A program made the translations under genes and the position numbers. Below the pieces are notes generated by a model. It saw only the letters and a list, made by a program, of their open reading frames with translations, did no database searches and was not told where the DNA came from. From Hyphomicrobiales bacterium (GTDB lineage: Bacteria > Pseudomonadota > Alphaproteobacteria > Rhizobiales > Rhizobiaceae), in assembly GCA_900473745.1 (NCBI GenBank), contig UCMW01000004.1:62001-126000 (forward strand): 64,000 nt of DNA, written 5' to 3'. This document shows positions 11,723 through 43,904 of the stretch, in pieces. Numbering within the stretch: the stretch's first letter is position 1; every line of letters begins with the position of its first letter.

Positions 11723-11897
11723 CGGCAGAGACGATTCCGTCGCAACCATTATCCCCCTGTTTACCATGGGTTTGTTGAACCTCGAACCCGACCCTTTCGG
11801 TTAAGGTGTTGGCAATGAATGACTGCGAGTTTGGAGCTCGCACGACGGGTCTGGTAGCAACGAAAAATACCAAATGGCATGATGCCGAACGTTCGTG

Positions 11898-11951
11898 ACC
11901 GGTAAGCTTTTTAGTCCGGTATGTCCCCTCCAGTATCTCGTTTAAGGGACA
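11898..11951 (+). promoter_or_regulatory. Flagellin leader tandem stem-loop (copy 1)
   Basis: Stem 1 is ACCGG (11898-11902) with CCGGT (11916-11920). Stem 2 is TGTCCC (11922-11927) with GGGACA (11946-11951), separated by 18 bases. The ribosome site AAGGGA (11944-11949) lies largely inside the 3' arm of stem 2 and the flagellin ATG is at 11959. Related structures with compensatory changes precede two other flagellins. Probable post-transcriptional control element; the trans-acting factor is inferred (FlbT). Confidence 0.6.
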
Positions 11952-11958
11952 AATTGAC

Positions 11959-12876
11959 ATGGCCAGCATTCTGACCAACTCCAGCGCGATGTCCGCGCTC
12001 TCTACCCTGCGCTCGATCGCTTCCAGCCTGGAATCGACGCAGAACTCCATCTCGACCGGCATGAAGGTTTCCAAGGCTTCCGATAACGCTGCTTACTGGT
12101 CTATCTCGACCGGCATGCGCTCGGACAACATGGCACTGTCCGCTGTTTCCGACGCTCTCGGCGTTGGCGCTGCCAAGGTCGATACGGCTTATGCCGGTAT
12201 GGATTCCGCAATCGAAGTCGTGAAGGAAATCAAGGCCAAGATCGTTGCCGCTAAGGAAGAAGGCGTCGACAAGGCCAAGATCCAGGAAGAAATCACGCAG
12301 CTTCAGGAACAGCTCGTTTCGATCGCGAAGAGCTCTTCCTTCAACGGTGAGAACTGGATCGCCGGCACAGCAGCCACCAAGACGGTCGTCAGCGGTTTCG
12401 TTCGCGGCTCTGACGGCAATGTCAGCGTCAAGACGACCGAATACACCATGGATGACGACTCCATGCTGTACACCTTCGACGCCGACGGCGAAGTCGAAGA
12501 CGACAACGGCATCCTGGGCGCCAACGGTGACACCATCACTGTCGACGGCACGGACTACACGACGATCGCCGTCAAGGACATAGACGTCGAAAGCGACGAC
12601 ATCGACGCCGCTCTGGTTTCGGTTGACGCAGCCCTTGAGAAGATGACGAGCGCCGGCGCAGCGCTGGGTTCGATCTCTTCCCGCATCGAGCTGCAGGCCG
12701 ACTTCTCCGAGAAGCTGTCTGACGCCATCGAAAAGGGCGTTGGTCGTCTCGTTGACGCCGACATGAACGAAGAGTCGACCCGCCTCAAGGCCCTGCAGAC
12801 CCAGCAGCAGCTGGCAATCCAGGCGCTCTCGATCGCCAACAGCGACTCGCAGAACATCCTGTCGCTCTTCCGTTGA
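11959..12876 (+). CDS. flaA: Flagellin (first of four)
   Basis: 305 residues, the shortest of four paralogues and of the short type typical of rhizobial complex flagella. The N-terminus MASILTNSSAMSALSTLRSI and the C-terminus with VDADMNEESTRLKALQTQQQ and ending ILSLFR are the conserved D0/D1 coiled-coil segments; the centre (about 145-215) is the variable surface domain, here acidic. Exported through the FlhA/FliPQR gate and polymerised into the filament. It has its own 5' leader structure and a terminator about 130 bases after the stop. The symbol is positional. Confidence 0.95.
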   Translation: MASILTNSSAMSALSTLRSIASSLESTQNSISTGMKVSKASDNAAYWSISTGMRSDNMALSAVSDALGVGAAKVDTAYAGMDSAIEVVKEIKAKIVAAKEEGVDKAKIQEEITQLQEQLVSIAKSSSFNGENWIAGTAATKTVVSGFVRGSDGNVSVKTTEYTMDDDSMLYTFDADGEVEDDNGILGANGDTITVDGTDYTTIAVKDIDVESDDIDAALVSVDAALEKMTSAGAALGSISSRIELQADFSEKLSDAIEKGVGRLVDADMNEESTRLKALQTQQQLAIQALSIANSDSQNILSLFR

Positions 12877-13223
12877 TCGAAGGAACAAGTCGGCCCGTAA
12901 GGGCCGGCTAGACTATCCCGACGCCAATATGCCTTGGTGGCTGACCAGAGGCGCGCGAAGGGAAGGCTTCAACATCCGGAGGCTGATCCGGACACGAGGC
13001 AAGGCAAAGGCCGCATTCGGAAACGAATGCGGCCTTTCCGTTTTATTAATCATGATCTGCTACGCGCACGCACGCGCGAGAGTTGCAAAAATTTTCGCCA
13101 AATGACATTTTCCGTTTTCGTTTAGGTCTTCATTAACCTTGATAGTTTTATCTAGGCCTATCGAAGCGGCGAGCTAACTCTTAATTTTCAGCCAGTTAGC
13201 AGGCATGATGCTGTGCGCCGTTA
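12877..13223 (+). other. Long 3' region of first flagellin and promoter region of second
   Basis: No credible gene here. It holds a short GC hairpin at about 12894-12908 (GGCCC/GGGCC), an unexplained ~95-base stretch, the strong terminator at 13006-13044, then an AT-rich stretch (13045-13200, with TTAACC and TTTAGG-like runs) suited to the promoter of the next flagellin. The 160 bases between stop and terminator are long enough to yield a 3'UTR-derived small RNA, but nothing proves one. Confidence 0.4.
13006..13044 (+). terminator. Rho-independent terminator after first flagellin
   Basis: A perfect 14-bp stem, AAAGGCCGCATTCG (13006-13019) with its complement at 13024-13037, closed by a GAAA tetraloop and followed by CCGTTTT. 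It is about 130 bases downstream of the flagellin stop. Confidence 0.85.
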
Positions 13224-13269
13224 CCGGTGAGACCGGAATGTCCCTTCTTAGTCAGCCATTCAAGGGGCA
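13224..13269 (+). promoter_or_regulatory. Flagellin leader tandem stem-loop (copy 2)
   Basis: Stem 1 is CCGG (13224-13227)/CCGG (13233-13236) with loop TGAGA. Stem 2 is TGTCCCTT (13239-13246) with AAGGGGCA (13262-13269), eight pairs including one G-U wobble. The AAGGGG ribosome site is in the 3' arm, and the ATG follows at 13278. The change from A-U to G-U keeps the stem, consistent with selection on structure. Confidence 0.6.
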
Positions 13270-13277
13270 CTACTACC

Positions 13278-14279
13278 ATGACGAGCATTCTTACCAATAT
13301 CGCCGCCATGTCGGCACTCCAGACGTTGCGCACGATCGGCAGCAACATGGAAGACACTCAGGCCCGCGTCTCCTCCGGTCAGCGCGTCGGTGAAGCCTCC
13401 GACAACGCTGCCTATTGGTCGATCGCCACCACGATGAAGTCCGACAACATGGCGCTGTCCGCCGTGTCCGACGCTCTCGGCCTCGGCGCCTCCAAGATCG
13501 ATACCGCCTATGCCGGTATGGAATCTGCTATCGACGTCGTTAAGGAAATAAAGGCCAAGCTGGTCACCGCCACCGAAGAAGGTGTCGACAAGGCCAAGGT
13601 TCAGGAAGAAATCACCCAGCTGCAGCAACAGCTGTTGTCGATCGCACAATCCGCTTCCTTCAGCGGTGAAAACTGGATCGCCGGCGGTACCGACACGATG
13701 ACCGCGGGCACCACGGAAGACGTAACTGTCGTCTCTGGTTTCGTCCGTGACGCCAACAATAACGTTGCAGTCAAGACGACGACCTACACGCTTGACGCCA
13801 CGACCGCTGGCAGCATGACCCTTCTGTTCGGCGGCGACGCCGACGGTGCTATCGACACCGCTTCCGGTATCCTCGGCCTGACCGCTGCAGACTTCACGAC
13901 GACCGACTTCGACTCGACCGTTGCCGGTACAGACGGCGCCGCGACTGCCGTCGCAGGCTTCTCCGTCTACACGCTGGACATCAACGGTTTCGACGGTGCG
14001 GCCATGGCCGAAGCCCTGACGCTGGTTGATGCTGCCCTGGCCTTCATGACCAGCGCCGGTGCAGACCTTGGCTCGATCTCGATGCGTATCGAACTCCAGG
14101 AAGGCTTCGTCAACAAGCTGTCCGACTCGCTCGACTCCGGTATCGGCCGCCTCGTCGACGCAGACATGAACGAAGAGTCCACCCGCCTCAAGGCACTGCA
14201 GACCCAGCAGCAGCTGGCCGTCCAGTCGCTCTCTATCGCCAACTCTTCCACGGAAGTCATCCTCTCGCTCTTCCGTTAA
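13278..14279 (+). CDS. flaB: Flagellin (second of four)
   Basis: 333 residues from the ATG at 13278 (MTSILTNIAAMSALQTLRTI), chosen over an upstream in-frame ATG because it aligns with the other three flagellins and follows the AAGGGG site. Conserved N- and C-terminal helices flank a variable Thr/Asp/Gly-rich centre (about 140-245). The C-terminus repeats VDADMNEESTRLKALQTQQQ and ends ILSLFR. Filament subunit, exported without a cleaved signal. It has its own leader stem-loops and terminator, so it can be expressed independently of its neighbours. Confidence 0.95.
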   Translation: MTSILTNIAAMSALQTLRTIGSNMEDTQARVSSGQRVGEASDNAAYWSIATTMKSDNMALSAVSDALGLGASKIDTAYAGMESAIDVVKEIKAKLVTATEEGVDKAKVQEEITQLQQQLLSIAQSASFSGENWIAGGTDTMTAGTTEDVTVVSGFVRDANNNVAVKTTTYTLDATTAGSMTLLFGGDADGAIDTASGILGLTAADFTTTDFDSTVAGTDGAATAVAGFSVYTLDINGFDGAAMAEALTLVDAALAFMTSAGADLGSISMRIELQEGFVNKLSDSLDSGIGRLVDADMNEESTRLKALQTQQQLAVQSLSIANSSTEVILSLFR

Positions 14280-14300
14280 GACTGAAGAGATCCAGCATCG

Positions 14301-14325
14301 AAGCCGCCCTCCGGGGCGGCTTTTT
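14301..14325 (+). terminator. Rho-independent terminator after second flagellin
   Basis: AAGCCGCCC (14301-14309) pairs with GGGCGGCTT (14314-14322) around a TCCG loop and runs into TTTTT, 21 bases after the flagellin stop. Confidence 0.9.
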
Positions 14326-14377
14326 GCGTCTTAACGAATTTTACATGTCTGCTTAACCATCCGTTAACCATAAGCCC

Positions 14378-14397
14378 GTTACATGGGGTCATGTAAC
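14378..14397 (+). promoter_or_regulatory. Inverted repeat upstream of third flagellin
   Basis: GTTACATG (14378-14385) and CATGTAAC (14390-14397) form a perfect 8-base inverted repeat around GGGT, about 105 bases before the third flagellin start. It lies in an AT-rich stretch with several GTTAAC/TTAACC words. It may be a protein-binding site; no equivalent is obvious in front of the other flagellins. Confidence 0.35.
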
Positions 14398-14450
14398 GAT
14401 GAGTTAACCAAGACGAAGAACTGGTTAAGGGCATTAAGCCGCGTCATCGT

Positions 14451-14496
14451 TCCCGGAAAGACCGGGATGTCCCCAGATCTAGCCATTTAAGGGACA
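14451..14496 (+). promoter_or_regulatory. Flagellin leader tandem stem-loop (copy 3)
   Basis: Stem 1 is TCCCGG (14451-14456)/CCGGGA (14462-14467) with loop AAAGA. Stem 2 is TGTCCC (14468-14473)/GGGACA (14491-14496) with a 17-base loop. AAGGGA, the ribosome site, is in the 3' arm and the GTG start is at 14502. Stem 1 differs in sequence from copy 1 (ACCGG/CCGGT) but still pairs, which is covariation support. Confidence 0.62.
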
Positions 14497-14501
14497 CGAC
14501 C

Positions 14502-15500
14502 GTGACCAGCATTTTGACAAACAACGCAGCGATGGCTGCACTCCAGACCCTCCGCTCCATCGACTCGAAGATGCAGGATACCCAGGCGCGCGTATCGTCC
14601 GGTCTCCGTGTCGGGGGTGCCTCTGACAACGCCGCATACTGGTCGATCGCGACCACAATGCGCTCCGACAATATGGCACTGTCCGCCGTACAGGACGCGC
14701 TCGGTCTCGGCGCAGCCAAGATCGACACCGCTTATGCCGCGATGGAAAGCTCCATCGAGGTGATGAAGGAAATCAAGGCAAAGGTTGTTGCCGCCACGGA
14801 AGAAGGCGTCGACAAGAACAAGATCCAGGAAGAAATCGACCAGCTGCAGGAACAGCTGCGATCGATCTCGGAATCGGCAAGCTTCAGCGGCCAGAACTGG
14901 GTCGCAACCGGCGCCGATACTGTGACTGCACCCGTGGAAGTGACGGTTGTTTCAGGTTTCATCCGCGACTCGAACGGCAATGTTTCCGTTTCGACGACAC
15001 TCTATTCCCTCGACGCCACGACCCCGGACGGCATGACCGTATTGTTCGGTGGCGATGCCACAGGCCTGATCGACTACAATTCCGGCATCATCGGTAGTAT
15101 CTCCGATACTTTCGACGCCTTCGTCGACTGGGACAATGACGGCGCGACGGGTGCTGCAGCCGCAGAAATCGCGGGTGTTTCCATCGACCAGCTCGATATC
15201 ACCACCTTGACGACCGCCGGCATGCAGGAAGCTCTGTCTCTCGTTGAATATGGCCTGCAGCAGATGACCAGCGCAGCGGCCGCTCTTGGCTCCATCTCCA
15301 TGCGCATCGGCATGCAGGAAGACTTTGTCGCCGCACTTACCGACTCGATCGACAGTGGTGTCGGTCGCCTCGTCGATGCCGACATGAACGAAGAATCGAC
15401 CCGCCTCAAGGCCCTGCAGACCCAGCAGCAGCTGGCCATCCAGTCGCTCTCGATCGCCAACACCTCTTCCGAAAGCATTCTGACACTCTTCCGTCAGTAA
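14502..15500 (+). CDS. flaC: Flagellin (third of four)
   Basis: 332 residues, starting at GTG (14502) right after the AAGGGAC site; the start is fixed by alignment (MTSILTNNAAMAALQTLRSI). Conserved helical ends flank a divergent centre (about 140-245). The C-terminus has VDADMNEESTRLKALQTQQQ and ends ILTLFRQ. Filament subunit of a complex flagellum. The GTG start combined with a structured ribosome site suggests lower or more tightly controlled translation than for the ATG-starting paralogues; that is inference. Confidence 0.95.
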   Translation: MTSILTNNAAMAALQTLRSIDSKMQDTQARVSSGLRVGGASDNAAYWSIATTMRSDNMALSAVQDALGLGAAKIDTAYAAMESSIEVMKEIKAKVVAATEEGVDKNKIQEEIDQLQEQLRSISESASFSGQNWVATGADTVTAPVEVTVVSGFIRDSNGNVSVSTTLYSLDATTPDGMTVLFGGDATGLIDYNSGIIGSISDTFDAFVDWDNDGATGAAAAEIAGVSIDQLDITTLTTAGMQEALSLVEYGLQQMTSAAAALGSISMRIGMQEDFVAALTDSIDSGVGRLVDADMNEESTRLKALQTQQQLAIQSLSIANTSSESILTLFRQ

Positions 15501-15757
15501 GCGGCGCTCTGGCTAGGGGCGACTTCGTCCCGCCCTGACAGTGTCGGATGTTCTCGGTGTGAATCCGCGCCTCGCAAGAGGCGCGGATTTTCGTTTCAGC
15601 CTTGCGCGAAGCTTTTGCTGATTTTCTTTTGGCTACAAAAGCACGTTGAATATGTTGCCAGATCGGCTTCCCCTCTGTTAACTGCGCACGTTAACGTTTT
15701 GTTAACGGTGACGGGGACCCGCGCAATGCGCGGTCTGCATGATGCCCTCCCGTCTTG
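15501..15757 (+). other. Intergenic region between third and fourth flagellins
   Basis: Besides the terminator at 15562-15597, this stretch contains CTTGCGCGAAGCTT (15601-15614), similar to a sequence upstream of rem (22340-22353), and three GTTAAC-type words around 15675-15710 that probably belong to the promoter of the fourth flagellin. No ORF is supported. Confidence 0.4.
15562..15597 (+). terminator. Rho-independent terminator after third flagellin
   Basis: A perfect 12-bp stem, AATCCGCGCCTC (15562-15573) with GAGGCGCGGATT (15578-15589), closed by a GCAA tetraloop and followed by TTCGTTT. Confidence 0.85.
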
Positions 15758-15798
15758 CCGGCCAGCGCCGGATGCGCAGTCCTGAACGCTTAGGGGCA
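15758..15798 (+). promoter_or_regulatory. Flagellin leader stem-loop (copy 4, degenerate)
   Basis: Stem 1 is kept: CCGGC (15758-15762)/GCCGG (15767-15771) with loop CAGC. Stem 2 is reduced to TGC (15773-15775)/GCA (15796-15798) plus a bulge. The ribosome site TAGGGG lies in the same position before the ATG at 15805. The weaker second stem may make this flagellin escape the control acting on the other three. Confidence 0.42.
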
Positions 15799-15804
15799 CC
15801 AAGC

Positions 15805-16764
15805 ATGACCAGTATTATGACCAATGCGGCCGCCATGGCGGCGCTGCAGACGCTTCGTTCGATCGACACCAATCTCGAGACGACCCAGCGGCGCGTTTCC
15901 TCGGGCTACCGGGTGGAGACCGCAGCAGACAATGCCGGCTATTGGTCGATCGCCACCACGATGCGCTCCGACAATGCAGCGCTCTCGACCGTTTCCGACG
16001 CGCTCGGCCTCGGCGCCGCCACGGTTGATACCGCTTACACGGCCCTCGACAACGTCGTCGACGTGATGTCCACGATCAAGGCGAAGCTGGTTGCGGCAAG
16101 CGAGCCCGGCGTCGACAAGAACAAGATCAACGAGGAAATGACCCAGCTGAAGAATCAGCTGATCTCGGCCGCGCAGTCAGCATCCTTCTCCGGCGAAAAC
16201 TGGCTCTACAACACGAATGCCGCCCCACTCGGCACGAAACAGGTCGTCTCATCCTTCGTCCGTGGAGCGGATGGCAGCGTGCAGGTCACCACGCTCGACT
16301 TCGACACGGCAGAATCCGTCCTCATCGACATCCAGGATGCCTCGCAGGGTTTTCTGACCAAGTCGATCGACGCCGATGCGTTGCGCAACACTGGTCTGGG
16401 TGTCCGCGAATACTACCTTCTCGACATGGGCGCACCGACCGGCGGCGACGAGATCGCCATCGACACGAACACCACCAAGGAAGCGCTCGACGACATGATT
16501 GCCGTCGTCGACAACGTCATCCAGCAGTTGACCGATGCCGCCGCCACCCTTGGCGCGATCACGTCGCGCATCGAAATGCAGGACAACTTCGTCTCGAACC
16601 TCATGGACGTGATCGACAAGGGCATCGGCCGTTTGGTCGACGCCGACATGAACGAGGAGTCGACCCGTCTGAAGGCACTGCAGACCCAGCAGCAGCTCGG
16701 CATCCAGGCTCTCTCGATCGCCAACAGCAGCGCTGAAAAGCTCCTGACGCTCTTCCAGCGATAA
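15805..16764 (+). CDS. flaD: Flagellin (fourth of four)
   Basis: 319 residues from the ATG at 15805 (MTSIMTNAAAMAALQTLRSI), which aligns with the paralogues; the in-frame ATG at 15739 would add 22 unsupported residues. It is the most divergent of the four, with RRVSSGYRVETAADN in D1 and a shorter centre. The C-terminus keeps VDADMNEESTRLKALQTQQQ and ends LLTLFQR. Its leader has a degenerate second stem. Minor or specialised filament subunit is possible but not shown. Confidence 0.94.
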   Translation: MTSIMTNAAAMAALQTLRSIDTNLETTQRRVSSGYRVETAADNAGYWSIATTMRSDNAALSTVSDALGLGAATVDTAYTALDNVVDVMSTIKAKLVAASEPGVDKNKINEEMTQLKNQLISAAQSASFSGENWLYNTNAAPLGTKQVVSSFVRGADGSVQVTTLDFDTAESVLIDIQDASQGFLTKSIDADALRNTGLGVREYYLLDMGAPTGGDEIAIDTNTTKEALDDMIAVVDNVIQQLTDAAATLGAITSRIEMQDNFVSNLMDVIDKGIGRLVDADMNEESTRLKALQTQQQLGIQALSIANSSAEKLLTLFQR

Positions 16765-27140: not shown

Positions 27141-27488
27141 ATGTACCAGTTCTCATATGCCGAAATCATGGAAGATGGCGTCGCTGACGCCAAGGAGCGC
27201 GAACGGCAGGCCCTTGACCGTTGCATCCAGCTTCTGAGCGCGGCCCGGGAGAAGAAGGGCTACTCCCGCGAAGCGATCGAAGCTCTGTTTTACACTCGCC
27301 GTGTTTGGGTCCGGCTGATCGAAGATCTGCAAAACCCCGAGAACCAGCTGGGCGCCGAAATACGCGCCAATCTGATTTCCATCGCCATCTGGATTTTGAA
27401 AGAGTGTGACCGGATCCGTAAGCGTGAGTCCGAGAACTTCCAGGGCATAATCGACGTGACAACCATCATCAGGGATGGACTTAAATGA
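27141..27488 (+). CDS. flaF: Flagellin synthesis regulator FlaF
   Basis: 115 residues, [20 protein letters not shown] onwards, all-helical, with [18 protein letters not shown] and [11 protein letters not shown], the FlaF family pattern. In alphaproteobacteria FlaF promotes flagellin production or export and acts in opposition to FlbT. It overlaps flbT by four bases (ATGA), so the pair is coupled. Confidence 0.93.
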
Positions 27489-27934
27489 AGAGCACTTTGC
27501 GCATCTCGCTCAAGTCGGGCGAACGTATTTTTATCAACGGAGCGGTTCTGCGCGTCGACCGCAAGGTTGCCCTCGAGTTCCTGAACGATGTGACCTTCCT
27601 GCTTGAGAACCACGTTCTGCAGCCGGAACAGGCCACCACGCCCCTGCGTCAGCTCTATTTCATCGCCCAGATGATGTTGATCAATCCGGAAGGCAAGGAC
27701 CAGTCGCTCGCGATGTTCCGCAAGTCGGTCATCATGCTGCTGTCCTGCTTCGAAAACGAGGAAATCCTCGCCGAACTGAAGCGCATTGACGGCATGGTAT
27801 CCTCGGGACGCGCCTTTGATGCCCTGAAGGCCATCCGCCAGCTCTACCCGATCGAGGACCGGATCCTGAACAATCAGGAAATGGCGCCGGCGACGATCGA
27901 ACAGATCCGTAAGGAAATAGCACCATGGCGATAG
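27485..27934 (+). CDS. flbT: Flagellin mRNA regulator FlbT
   Basis: 149 residues, beginning [20 protein letters not shown] with [20 protein letters not shown] and [20 protein letters not shown], all characteristic of FlbT. In Caulobacter FlbT associates with the 5' leader of flagellin mRNA and limits translation before the hook is complete. The conserved stem-loops in front of the flagellin genes here are natural candidates for its target. Overlaps flaF by four bases and flgD by ten. Confidence 0.94.
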
Positions 27935-43547: not shown

Positions 43548-43904
43548 ATGTATGACCGGGAAAACCGGTATCGCATGGAGGACACGATGAATGCCGGGCG
43601 GCTCGAATATACCGAGAACGGCATGTCGCACATGGCGGCACGACGCTGCGACGTCATCCGTATTTCGCTGAGCGGGGCGGTGGTCGCGCTGGTCACTCAG
43701 GTCAACCTGCCCAAGCAATTCTACCTCGACATCCCGGACGCCCGAATCTCCAAGGTCGGCGCGGTGCTGATGAAGACCTTCGCCAACAATACGGCCGAGA
43801 TCCGCTTCCTGCGTCTGCTGACGCAGAAGGAGCTGGACCGCATCTTCGTCTTCTCGACCCATCCGGCACACAAGGATCGCGTGCTCGACGTTCGCAGCTG
43901 GTAA
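43548..43904 (+). CDS. Small PilZ-like protein (tentative)
   Basis: 118 residues from the ATG at 43548, behind a near-perfect AAAGGAGG site. The middle has a beta-rich part RRCDVIRISLSGAVVALVTQ and NLPKQFYLDIP followed by AEIRFLRLLTQKELDRIFVF, reminiscent of the PilZ beta-barrel common in rhizobial small proteins. The classical RxxxR/DxSxxG c-di-GMP motif is not clean (ARR...RISLSG), so binding is doubtful. Monocistronic between the agl terminator and an SDR gene. Confidence 0.65.
   Translation: MYDRENRYRMEDTMNAGRLEYTENGMSHMAARRCDVIRISLSGAVVALVTQVNLPKQFYLDIPDARISKVGAVLMKTFANNTAEIRFLRLLTQKELDRIFVFSTHPAHKDRVLDVRSW

Follow-up and report, generated by a model that had tools for sequence, protein, structure and literature searches.

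The window analysed here, 64,000 nucleotides from a Hyphomicrobiales bacterium of the family Rhizobiaceae (assembly GCA_900473745.1, contig UCMW01000004.1, positions 62,001 to 126,000 of the forward strand), carries four consecutive flagellin genes downstream of fliP, with starts at 11959, 13278, 14502, and 15805. Further downstream lie flaF (27141..27488, PF07309) and flbT (27485..27934, PF07378), on the same plus strand as the flagellins. Our subject is the messenger RNA leader of these flagellins, in which two hairpins stand in tandem before the start codon and the second encloses the ribosome binding or Shine–Dalgarno (SD) sequence; this two-hairpin flagellin leader is real and general. 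An earlier note, made from the sequence alone, had described the four leaders and an FlbT gene at 27485. Re-reading of the sequence bears out the leaders and their coordinates, the fourth with its first hairpin only, and a Pfam match over 27485-27934 agrees with the assignment of flbT.

In leader 1, hairpin 1 (11898..11920) pairs ACCGG at 11898-11902 with CCGGT at 11916-11920, and hairpin 2 (11922..11951) pairs TGTCCC at 11922-11927 with GGGACA at 11946-11951; its 3' arm holds the SD sequence AAGGGA, its loop is of type I (GTATCTCGT), and flagellin 1 (11959..12876) begins with ATG at 11959. Leader 2 has hairpin 1 at 13223..13237 (CCGG 13224-13227 with CCGG 13233-13236) and hairpin 2 at 13239..13269 (TGTCCCTT 13239-13246 with AAGGGGCA 13262-13269, around a type II loop, CAGCCA), followed by flagellin 2 (13278..14279, ATG at 13278). 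Leader 3 repeats the arrangement with TCCCGG 14451-14456 and CCGGGA 14462-14467 (hairpin 1, 14451..14467) and TGTCCC 14468-14473 and GGGACA 14491-14496 (hairpin 2, 14468..14496), before flagellin 3 (14502..15500), which has a GTG start. In these three leaders the 3' arm of hairpin 2, either GGGACA or AAGGGGCA, contains the SD sequence and ends 5 to 8 bases 5' of the start. Leader 4 has hairpin 1 (15758..15771, CCGGC 15758-15762 with GCCGG 15767-15771), and hairpin 2 is absent; it has no match to the covariance model introduced below, and flagellin 4 (15805..16764, ATG at 15805) belongs to a group of paralogues whose leaders are without a full match. Upstream of each leader lies a promoter-like word: GGCATGATGCC at 11876..11886, an unmapped candidate at near-constant spacing to hairpin 1, GGCATGATGC at 13202..13211, GGCATTAAGCC at 14430..14440, and TGCATGATGCC at 15736..15746, all on the plus strand as are the hairpins. 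The contig holds another flagellin-like match, at C26:549527, which is without a leader of the two-hairpin type, and no Rfam 15 family reaches its gathering score anywhere in the window.

The window, 77 Rhizobiaceae loci, and 30 loci from genomes of the family together gave 351 flagellin leaders, 329 of them unique. Two CCGG words separated by 2 to 25 bases occur in 312 of the 329, against a mean of 25.75 in dinucleotide-shuffled sequences; the core of the element, in which this pair of words is followed by TGNCC, occurs in 253 (shuffled mean 0.85), and the core plus GGG near the start in 240 (shuffled mean 0.1). A covariance model, R1, was built from 65 leaders preselected by the CCGG pattern. 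Within the window's genome it gives strong matches only at the leaders of flagellins 1-3 (58.4, 51.3, and 44.6 bits, the next match scoring 17.7), and across 61 genomes of the family 78 matches are listed at E ≤ 1.4e-6, spread over 40 genomes, of which 77 end at a flagellin start; the remaining one, in genome G062, ends at a flagellin-like start seen in the fetched sequence. This is recurrence at an orthologous position beyond chance, as befits a conserved structured RNA leader. At the level of the class, 190 genomes searched with stricter filters and E ≤ 1e-5 gave matches only in the window's own genome and at two flagellin-free places; the matches outside the order (L296 and L297) were dropped because no flagellin is found there. 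A weak match of 13.2 bits at 43552-43596 of the window, near an ACCGG..CCGGT pair and off the flagellin cluster, is probably due to chance. This leader is described nowhere among the literature matches listed, which consist of titles and abstract openings with subscription journals largely missing, and the original Caulobacter FlbT papers may describe a similar fold.

Is it the pairing, or simply the sequence, that has been conserved? The earlier note had claimed that the leaders differ in sequence and keep their pairs. Inside the window this holds for the closing pairs and for one A/G change, but not for the CCGG/CCGG core; at the level of whole arms, compensatory change is clear in distant relatives and not in near ones. 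The best evidence at the level of single positions concerns the closing pair of hairpin 1, made up of the bases that flank the two CCGG words on the outside. Of 210 variable column pairs it ranks second, with no long-range pair above it, and its bases are a standard pair in 57 of the 102 non-redundant leaders, where 34.3 are expected. Nine column pairs were put to a null simulated along a tree of 173 leaders, and three of the nine are candidate pairs by the model: the closing pair (m1-p1), the first and last loop bases (l1-l-1), and T3-r4. The mutual information observed for the closing pair was reached in 0 of 400 simulations, for l1-l-1 in 1, and for T3-r4 in 28, and the share of paired cells at the closing pair is unexceptional (49 of 400). 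For other column pairs the counts out of 400 are 10 for m2-p1, 50 for m1-p2, 64 for n7-a-1, 15 for m4-p1, and 5 for l1-p1. Hence covariation across relatives, which the earlier note had named as the test of its proposal, is present as far as it could be checked, in the closing pair of hairpin 1 and in the re-sequenced hairpins of distant genomes; near the window it is modest, and the null is lenient.

Genomes at greater distance provide examples, identified partly by eye, in which a hairpin 1 of other sequence still closes directly before AUGU. The arms are UGCCU/AGGCA, GCUGG/CCAGC, and GCCGAA/UUCGGC in leaders of genome G087, GCCGA/UCGGC in G083 and G146, and CAUGUCGG/CCGACAUG in G105, and hairpin 2 has been re-sequenced as GUCUUUC/GAAAGAC in G146 and G182. 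Genome G083 (locus L191), of 1.5 Mb, has kept the leader with its re-sequenced hairpin 1 together with a UGUCCC..GGGACA hairpin 2. Arms were swapped among 30 leaders in which the anchor is not directly preceded by CCGG..CCGG, some of them anchor artefacts. The arms of hairpin 1 paired better with their own partners than with those of other leaders (mean 4.53 vs 4.06, 0 of 500 swaps), and stems of at least five pairs were more numerous (16 vs 10.1, 2 of 500). For hairpin 2 the swap set comprised 79 leaders whose arm differs from TGTCCC, reduced to 72 after removal of repeats, and gave an own mean of 4.75 against 4.42 (0 of 1000).

Several of these results count against conserved pairing. In the 65 homologues the CCGG/CCGG core is invariant, the RNAalifold covariation term is -0.34 with zero double changes, and 28 of the 65 closing pairs are non-standard, which weakens the case from near relatives. 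Part of this invariance is due to selection, since the 65 leaders were chosen by the CCGG pattern, and unselected distant leaders were therefore added to the tests; an argument from near relatives alone was abandoned as too weak, the cores in the selected Rhizobiaceae leaders scarcely varying. The simulated null is lenient in that the non-pairing columns n7-r4 also gave 0 of 400, other non-pairs giving 5 to 15. Swapped arms did not differ significantly for hairpin-1 stems of at least four pairs (23 vs 19.8, 33 of 500) or for hairpin-2 stems of at least five (33 vs 27.5, 56 of 1000), and many of the 72 leaders in the latter comparison are closely related and not all independent.

These points have to be considered together with the possibility that the conserved words are sites at the DNA level, for the promoter or a transcription factor, and that the hairpins are incidental palindromes. 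CCGG is itself palindromic, the core is invariant in the selected set, and the promoter-like word keeps an almost constant distance: of 415 leaders, 354 have a GCATGATGC-like word before hairpin 1, and in 345 of these 354 it lies 11-13 bases upstream. We nevertheless regard such an explanation as very improbable, given that the loop of hairpin 1 varies in length with its arms kept, that the closing pair covaries, and that both arms are replaced together in distant genomes. The GCATGATGC-like word would rather represent the -10 side of a promoter, in which case the mRNA would begin immediately upstream of hairpin 1. The earlier note had allowed that transcription starting downstream of the first stem would undo its proposal; because of the regular position of the promoter-like word, transcription probably starts before hairpin 1.

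The two hairpins are not distributed equally among the flagellin paralogues. A tree was built of 90 flagellins taken from 24 of 78 sources (the window and the 77 loci). R1 scores at least 31 bits in all 70 leaders of the main clade, at least 30 bits in only one of seven leaders of a second group, and at least 30 bits in none of the 13 leaders of a third group, which includes flagellin 4 of the window and in which two leaders score 22 and 25 bits. This split was taken from the R1 scores, the labels derived from patterns being wrong, as judged by eye, for window_15805 and L073_9972, which they credited with a hairpin 2. Hairpin 1 is thus kept, and hairpin 2 mostly missing, in a separate group of flagellins that by eye are mostly the last genes of their clusters (window 15758-15805 and the last genes of L055-L117); a regulatory flagellin is possible among them, and by analogy with FljJ a flagellin without hairpin 2 could be an early or regulatory one. 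Within the main clade, coding sequences of one genome often cluster together, as though homogenised. A type I leader (loop GTATYTCGT, with GGGACA) tends to stand before the first gene, and a type II leader (loop GCCA, with GGGGCA) before the other genes. Since the coding parts often group by genome and the leader type tends to follow gene position, the leaders seem to be selected apart from the coding parts.

The leader is also associated with one form of FlbT. FlbT is present in 100 of 150 genomes of the order and in all 19 of those with an R1 match at E ≤ 1e-6, the level at which the association was counted (35 further genomes with weaker matches, E up to 0.01, were left out). In 18 of the 19 the best R1 match shares its contig with a flbT gene no more than 35 kb away, so that FlbT belongs to the same genome and flagellar system as the leader. 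A phylogenetic tree with 60 of the 107 FlbT matches as rows, from which the FlbT of the 19th R1-positive genome was left out, separates two deep clades with support 100/100, clade A with 27 rows and clade B with 33. All 18 R1-positive FlbT proteins in the tree fall in clade A, as does the FlbT of the window, and in the four genomes having one flbT of each clade the strong R1 matches lie 12-14 kb from the clade-A copy in every case. Nine rows of clade A are R1-negative; flagellins could be inspected in eight of these genomes, and in each of the eight a hairpin precedes an AUG-like word in one leader or more, G146 and G182 having a clear second hairpin of other sequence and G105, G118, and G186 weaker candidates for it (by eye). 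All 50 genomes of the family with a flagellin match also have FlbT, so the family offers no natural knock-out.

This confinement to flagellins and to one FlbT clade bears on a reading in which the leader has no ligand and simply sets mRNA stability and translation rate at fixed values, hairpin 1 stabilising the 5' end against RNases and hairpin 2 tuning the strength of the SD sequence. Such a leader would account for the near-constant distance between hairpin 1 and the promoter-like word and for the retention of hairpin 1 even where hairpin 2 is lost. It would also account for a correlation between the base after UGUCCC and the A or G of GGGRCA, as if total stability were tuned; the two positions do not pair, and the pattern looks as if an extra U-A pair offset a U.G wobble. 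A fixed leader of this kind appears improbable to us, because the sequence conservation (AUGUCC, the SD arm, the loop words) exceeds what stability needs and the strong R1 matches are restricted to flagellin leaders and one FlbT clade.

What, then, does the leader do, and what reads it? The explanation we prefer, with a confidence slightly above even, is that the leader is a cis-acting element controlling flagellin translation by masking of the SD sequence, and that it is read by a trans-acting factor of the same flagellar system, most likely clade-A FlbT with FlaF. Hairpin 1, probably at the very 5' end of the mRNA, would be the more widely kept module, serving recognition or stabilisation. 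Hairpin 2, through its nearly fixed anti-SD arm UGUCC[CU], would pair with the SD sequence and keep translation low by default until the factor reads the leader and alters access to it. We infer that the factor is more likely to open the leader than to close it, since Agrobacterium with flbT insertions is non-motile or resists phage: flbT and flaF are reported to be among the genes hit when A. fabrum was screened for motility (PMC9812332), and Agrobacterium flbT insertions to have conferred resistance to phage OLIVR4, which the authors hypothesised to need flagella (PMC10132094). A review also states that Brucella FliC requires FlbT (PMC8781033), and a leader closed by default would suit an FlbT of clade A that acts positively. 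Paralogues with hairpin 1 alone, such as flagellin 4 of the window, would escape the lock of hairpin 2. The coupling of flagellin synthesis to flagellum assembly by FlbT and FlaF in Alphaproteobacteria has been described as unresolved (PMC4347634), and a leader of this kind might explain why FlbT seems to activate in Rhizobiaceae and to repress in Caulobacter.

Masking is predicted by folding. Among 269 leaders with both elements, the probability that the GGG of the SD sequence is unpaired averages 0.054; shuffling of the stretch from hairpin 1 to the SD sequence raises it to 0.156, and 235 of the 269 leaders lie below their shuffled control. The effect by this measure is moderate, because in 90% of the leaders the SD sequence of the control is also mostly paired. 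Leader 2 is the least closed of the three two-hairpin leaders in the window, with an SD unpaired probability of 0.354. Besides the pairing of the control, other results speak against the masking element and its reading by FlbT. Leaders 1-4 folded singly are no more stable than most of their shuffles (z of -0.17, -0.48, -1.19, and +0.65), leader 4 then taking a different structure, so that the case rests on comparison. No convincing hairpin 2 was found in G187, G151, and G218, and by eye G077 has lost it, although FlbT is kept in all of them. The association with FlbT may be plain co-inheritance of the flagellar system, and Caulobacter FlbT is reported to repress (PMC3930126, PMC7591256). The earlier note had read the leaders as an FlbT-responsive switch. 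Of this proposal, the conserved tandem hairpins at flagellin genes, the SD sequence in the second, and their inheritance with one FlbT clade have held, while the link to FlbT consists of association and published genetics.

The Caulobacter findings suggest another arrangement of the same components, in which binding of FlbT to hairpin 1 or to the loop of hairpin 2 holds the leader closed and favours decay, until FlaF or the export of a regulatory flagellin lifts the block; the flagellin lacking hairpin 2 would then be a co-repressor like FljJ, made first. In Caulobacter, FlbT is reported to contact flagellin 5' untranslated regions (UTRs) and FlbT with FljJ to repress (PMC4347634, PMC7591256), and the scarcity of strong R1 scores in the two minor flagellin groups described above would fit such a division of roles. 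We consider this rather unlikely, since a repressor does not sit well with the non-motile or phage-resistant phenotypes of flbT insertions in Agrobacterium; a Phaeobacter flbT mutant, for its part, is reported to stay motile (PMC11974857). The fljK leader of Caulobacter crescentus shares with the present one its place in a flagellin mRNA, the presence of FlbT and FlaF in the same system, and a proposed post-transcriptional control. The likeness drawn here is one of gene context; in the class-level set the R1 matches at E ≤ 1e-5 lie only in the window's own genome and at the two flagellin-free places.

Among known RNA elements, the serC element of Alphaproteobacteria (RF00517) is similar in design, with a promoter directly upstream, two short stems, and a last hairpin at most 11 nucleotides from the start that is proposed to sequester the ribosome site, as reported with its description (PMC1273637); it differs in genes, sequence, and loop, and does not appear in the lists of Rfam matches to the window or to the leaders. 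The flg-Rhizobiales RNA (RF01736) is likewise a candidate cis-regulatory RNA of flagellar genes in Rhizobiales, but spans 141 positions with three hairpins, and was rejected as the identity of our leaders since it gave no match at gathering score and none at the leaders of the window. The one RF01736 match examined, at L010:1501-1607 in genome G035, scores 34.4 bits against a gathering score of 55 and lies over the start of flgF (TIGR02490) and not at a flagellin, which also counted towards the rejection. The control of flagellin by CsrA and FliW in Bacillus and Campylobacter is a further case of a flagellin leader read by a protein and coupled to assembly, and an analogy between CsrA-FliW and FlaF/FlbT has been proposed (PMC4894983). 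The leaders of the window type differ from it: hairpins with an AGRA loop and a stem of at least four pairs are found in 0 of 323 selected and 2 of 415 unselected leaders, about the shuffled rate, and CsrA-type GGA loops are thus not a feature of this class.

AGRA loops are, in contrast, frequent beside flbT genes of clade B. We collected the stretches before 40 flbT genes, 19 of which are in clade B of the tree and the rest picked by match length; by pattern, FlbT of the clade-B type is encoded in 39 of the 40, and 37 of the 40 stretches (L328-L367) yielded 79 flagellin leaders. A hairpin of at least four pairs with an AGRA-type loop, mostly C[AGRAN]G, is present in 50 of the 79, against 0.73 and a maximum of 3 after shuffling, and AGRA hairpins with at least five pairs number 35 in these leaders against 6 in the remaining fetched DNA. 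The 43 distal hairpins have 36 different 5' arms, and in 40 distal hairpins with a C[AGRAN]G loop the arms pair with their own partners over 4.4 bases, against 1.54 when swapped (0 of 2000). No Rfam family matched at gathering score in the 10 of the 40 stretches that were scanned. Tentatively, then, FlbT may read flagellin leaders throughout Hyphomicrobiales by two codes, the CCGG and UGUCCC/SD hairpins in clade A, and in clade B hairpins whose C[AGRAN]G loop is invariant and whose stems covary freely, in many cases accompanied by another near the SD sequence; we think this possible, with less than even confidence. If it were so, clade B would embody a solution resembling that of CsrA, with an AGRA loop and a small FlbT N-terminal region rich in beta structure, and genomes with two flagella would keep the two codes apart. 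Direct and compact tests become possible with a defined RNA element, with paralogues in which its SD-masking half is naturally missing, and with another class of leaders that goes with the other FlbT clade.

As to FlbT itself, its N-terminal region shows a weak, non-significant resemblance to CsrA or LSm proteins. Comparison of clade-B FlbT with CsrA-like proteins from viral contigs by hhalign gave a probability of 25% and a score of 23.65 over 14 columns, the maximum of 60 column-shuffled comparisons being 17.85 and clade-A FlbT scoring 12.5; the FlbT profile met LSm4 in the PDB at E of about 0.35, and one of six FlbT proteins matched Pfam Sm_like at E 0.043, below the cut-off. A single-sequence AlphaFold model (mean predicted local distance difference test score 70.6) had no PDB match at E ≤ 0.001, and our search found no FlbT in viral contigs. 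Homology to CsrA or LSm/Sm is not claimed, these matches being weak. The two clades of FlbT (window 27485-27934 and L206-L265) differ in this N-terminal region, where clade B has EGNAPILREKDI. In the leaders beside clade-B flbT the C[AGRAN]G hairpins lie mostly 35-55 nucleotides before the start, and a second AGRA hairpin is often near the SD sequence; 38 of the 79 leaders have an AGRA hairpin of at least three pairs no more than 32 bases from the start.

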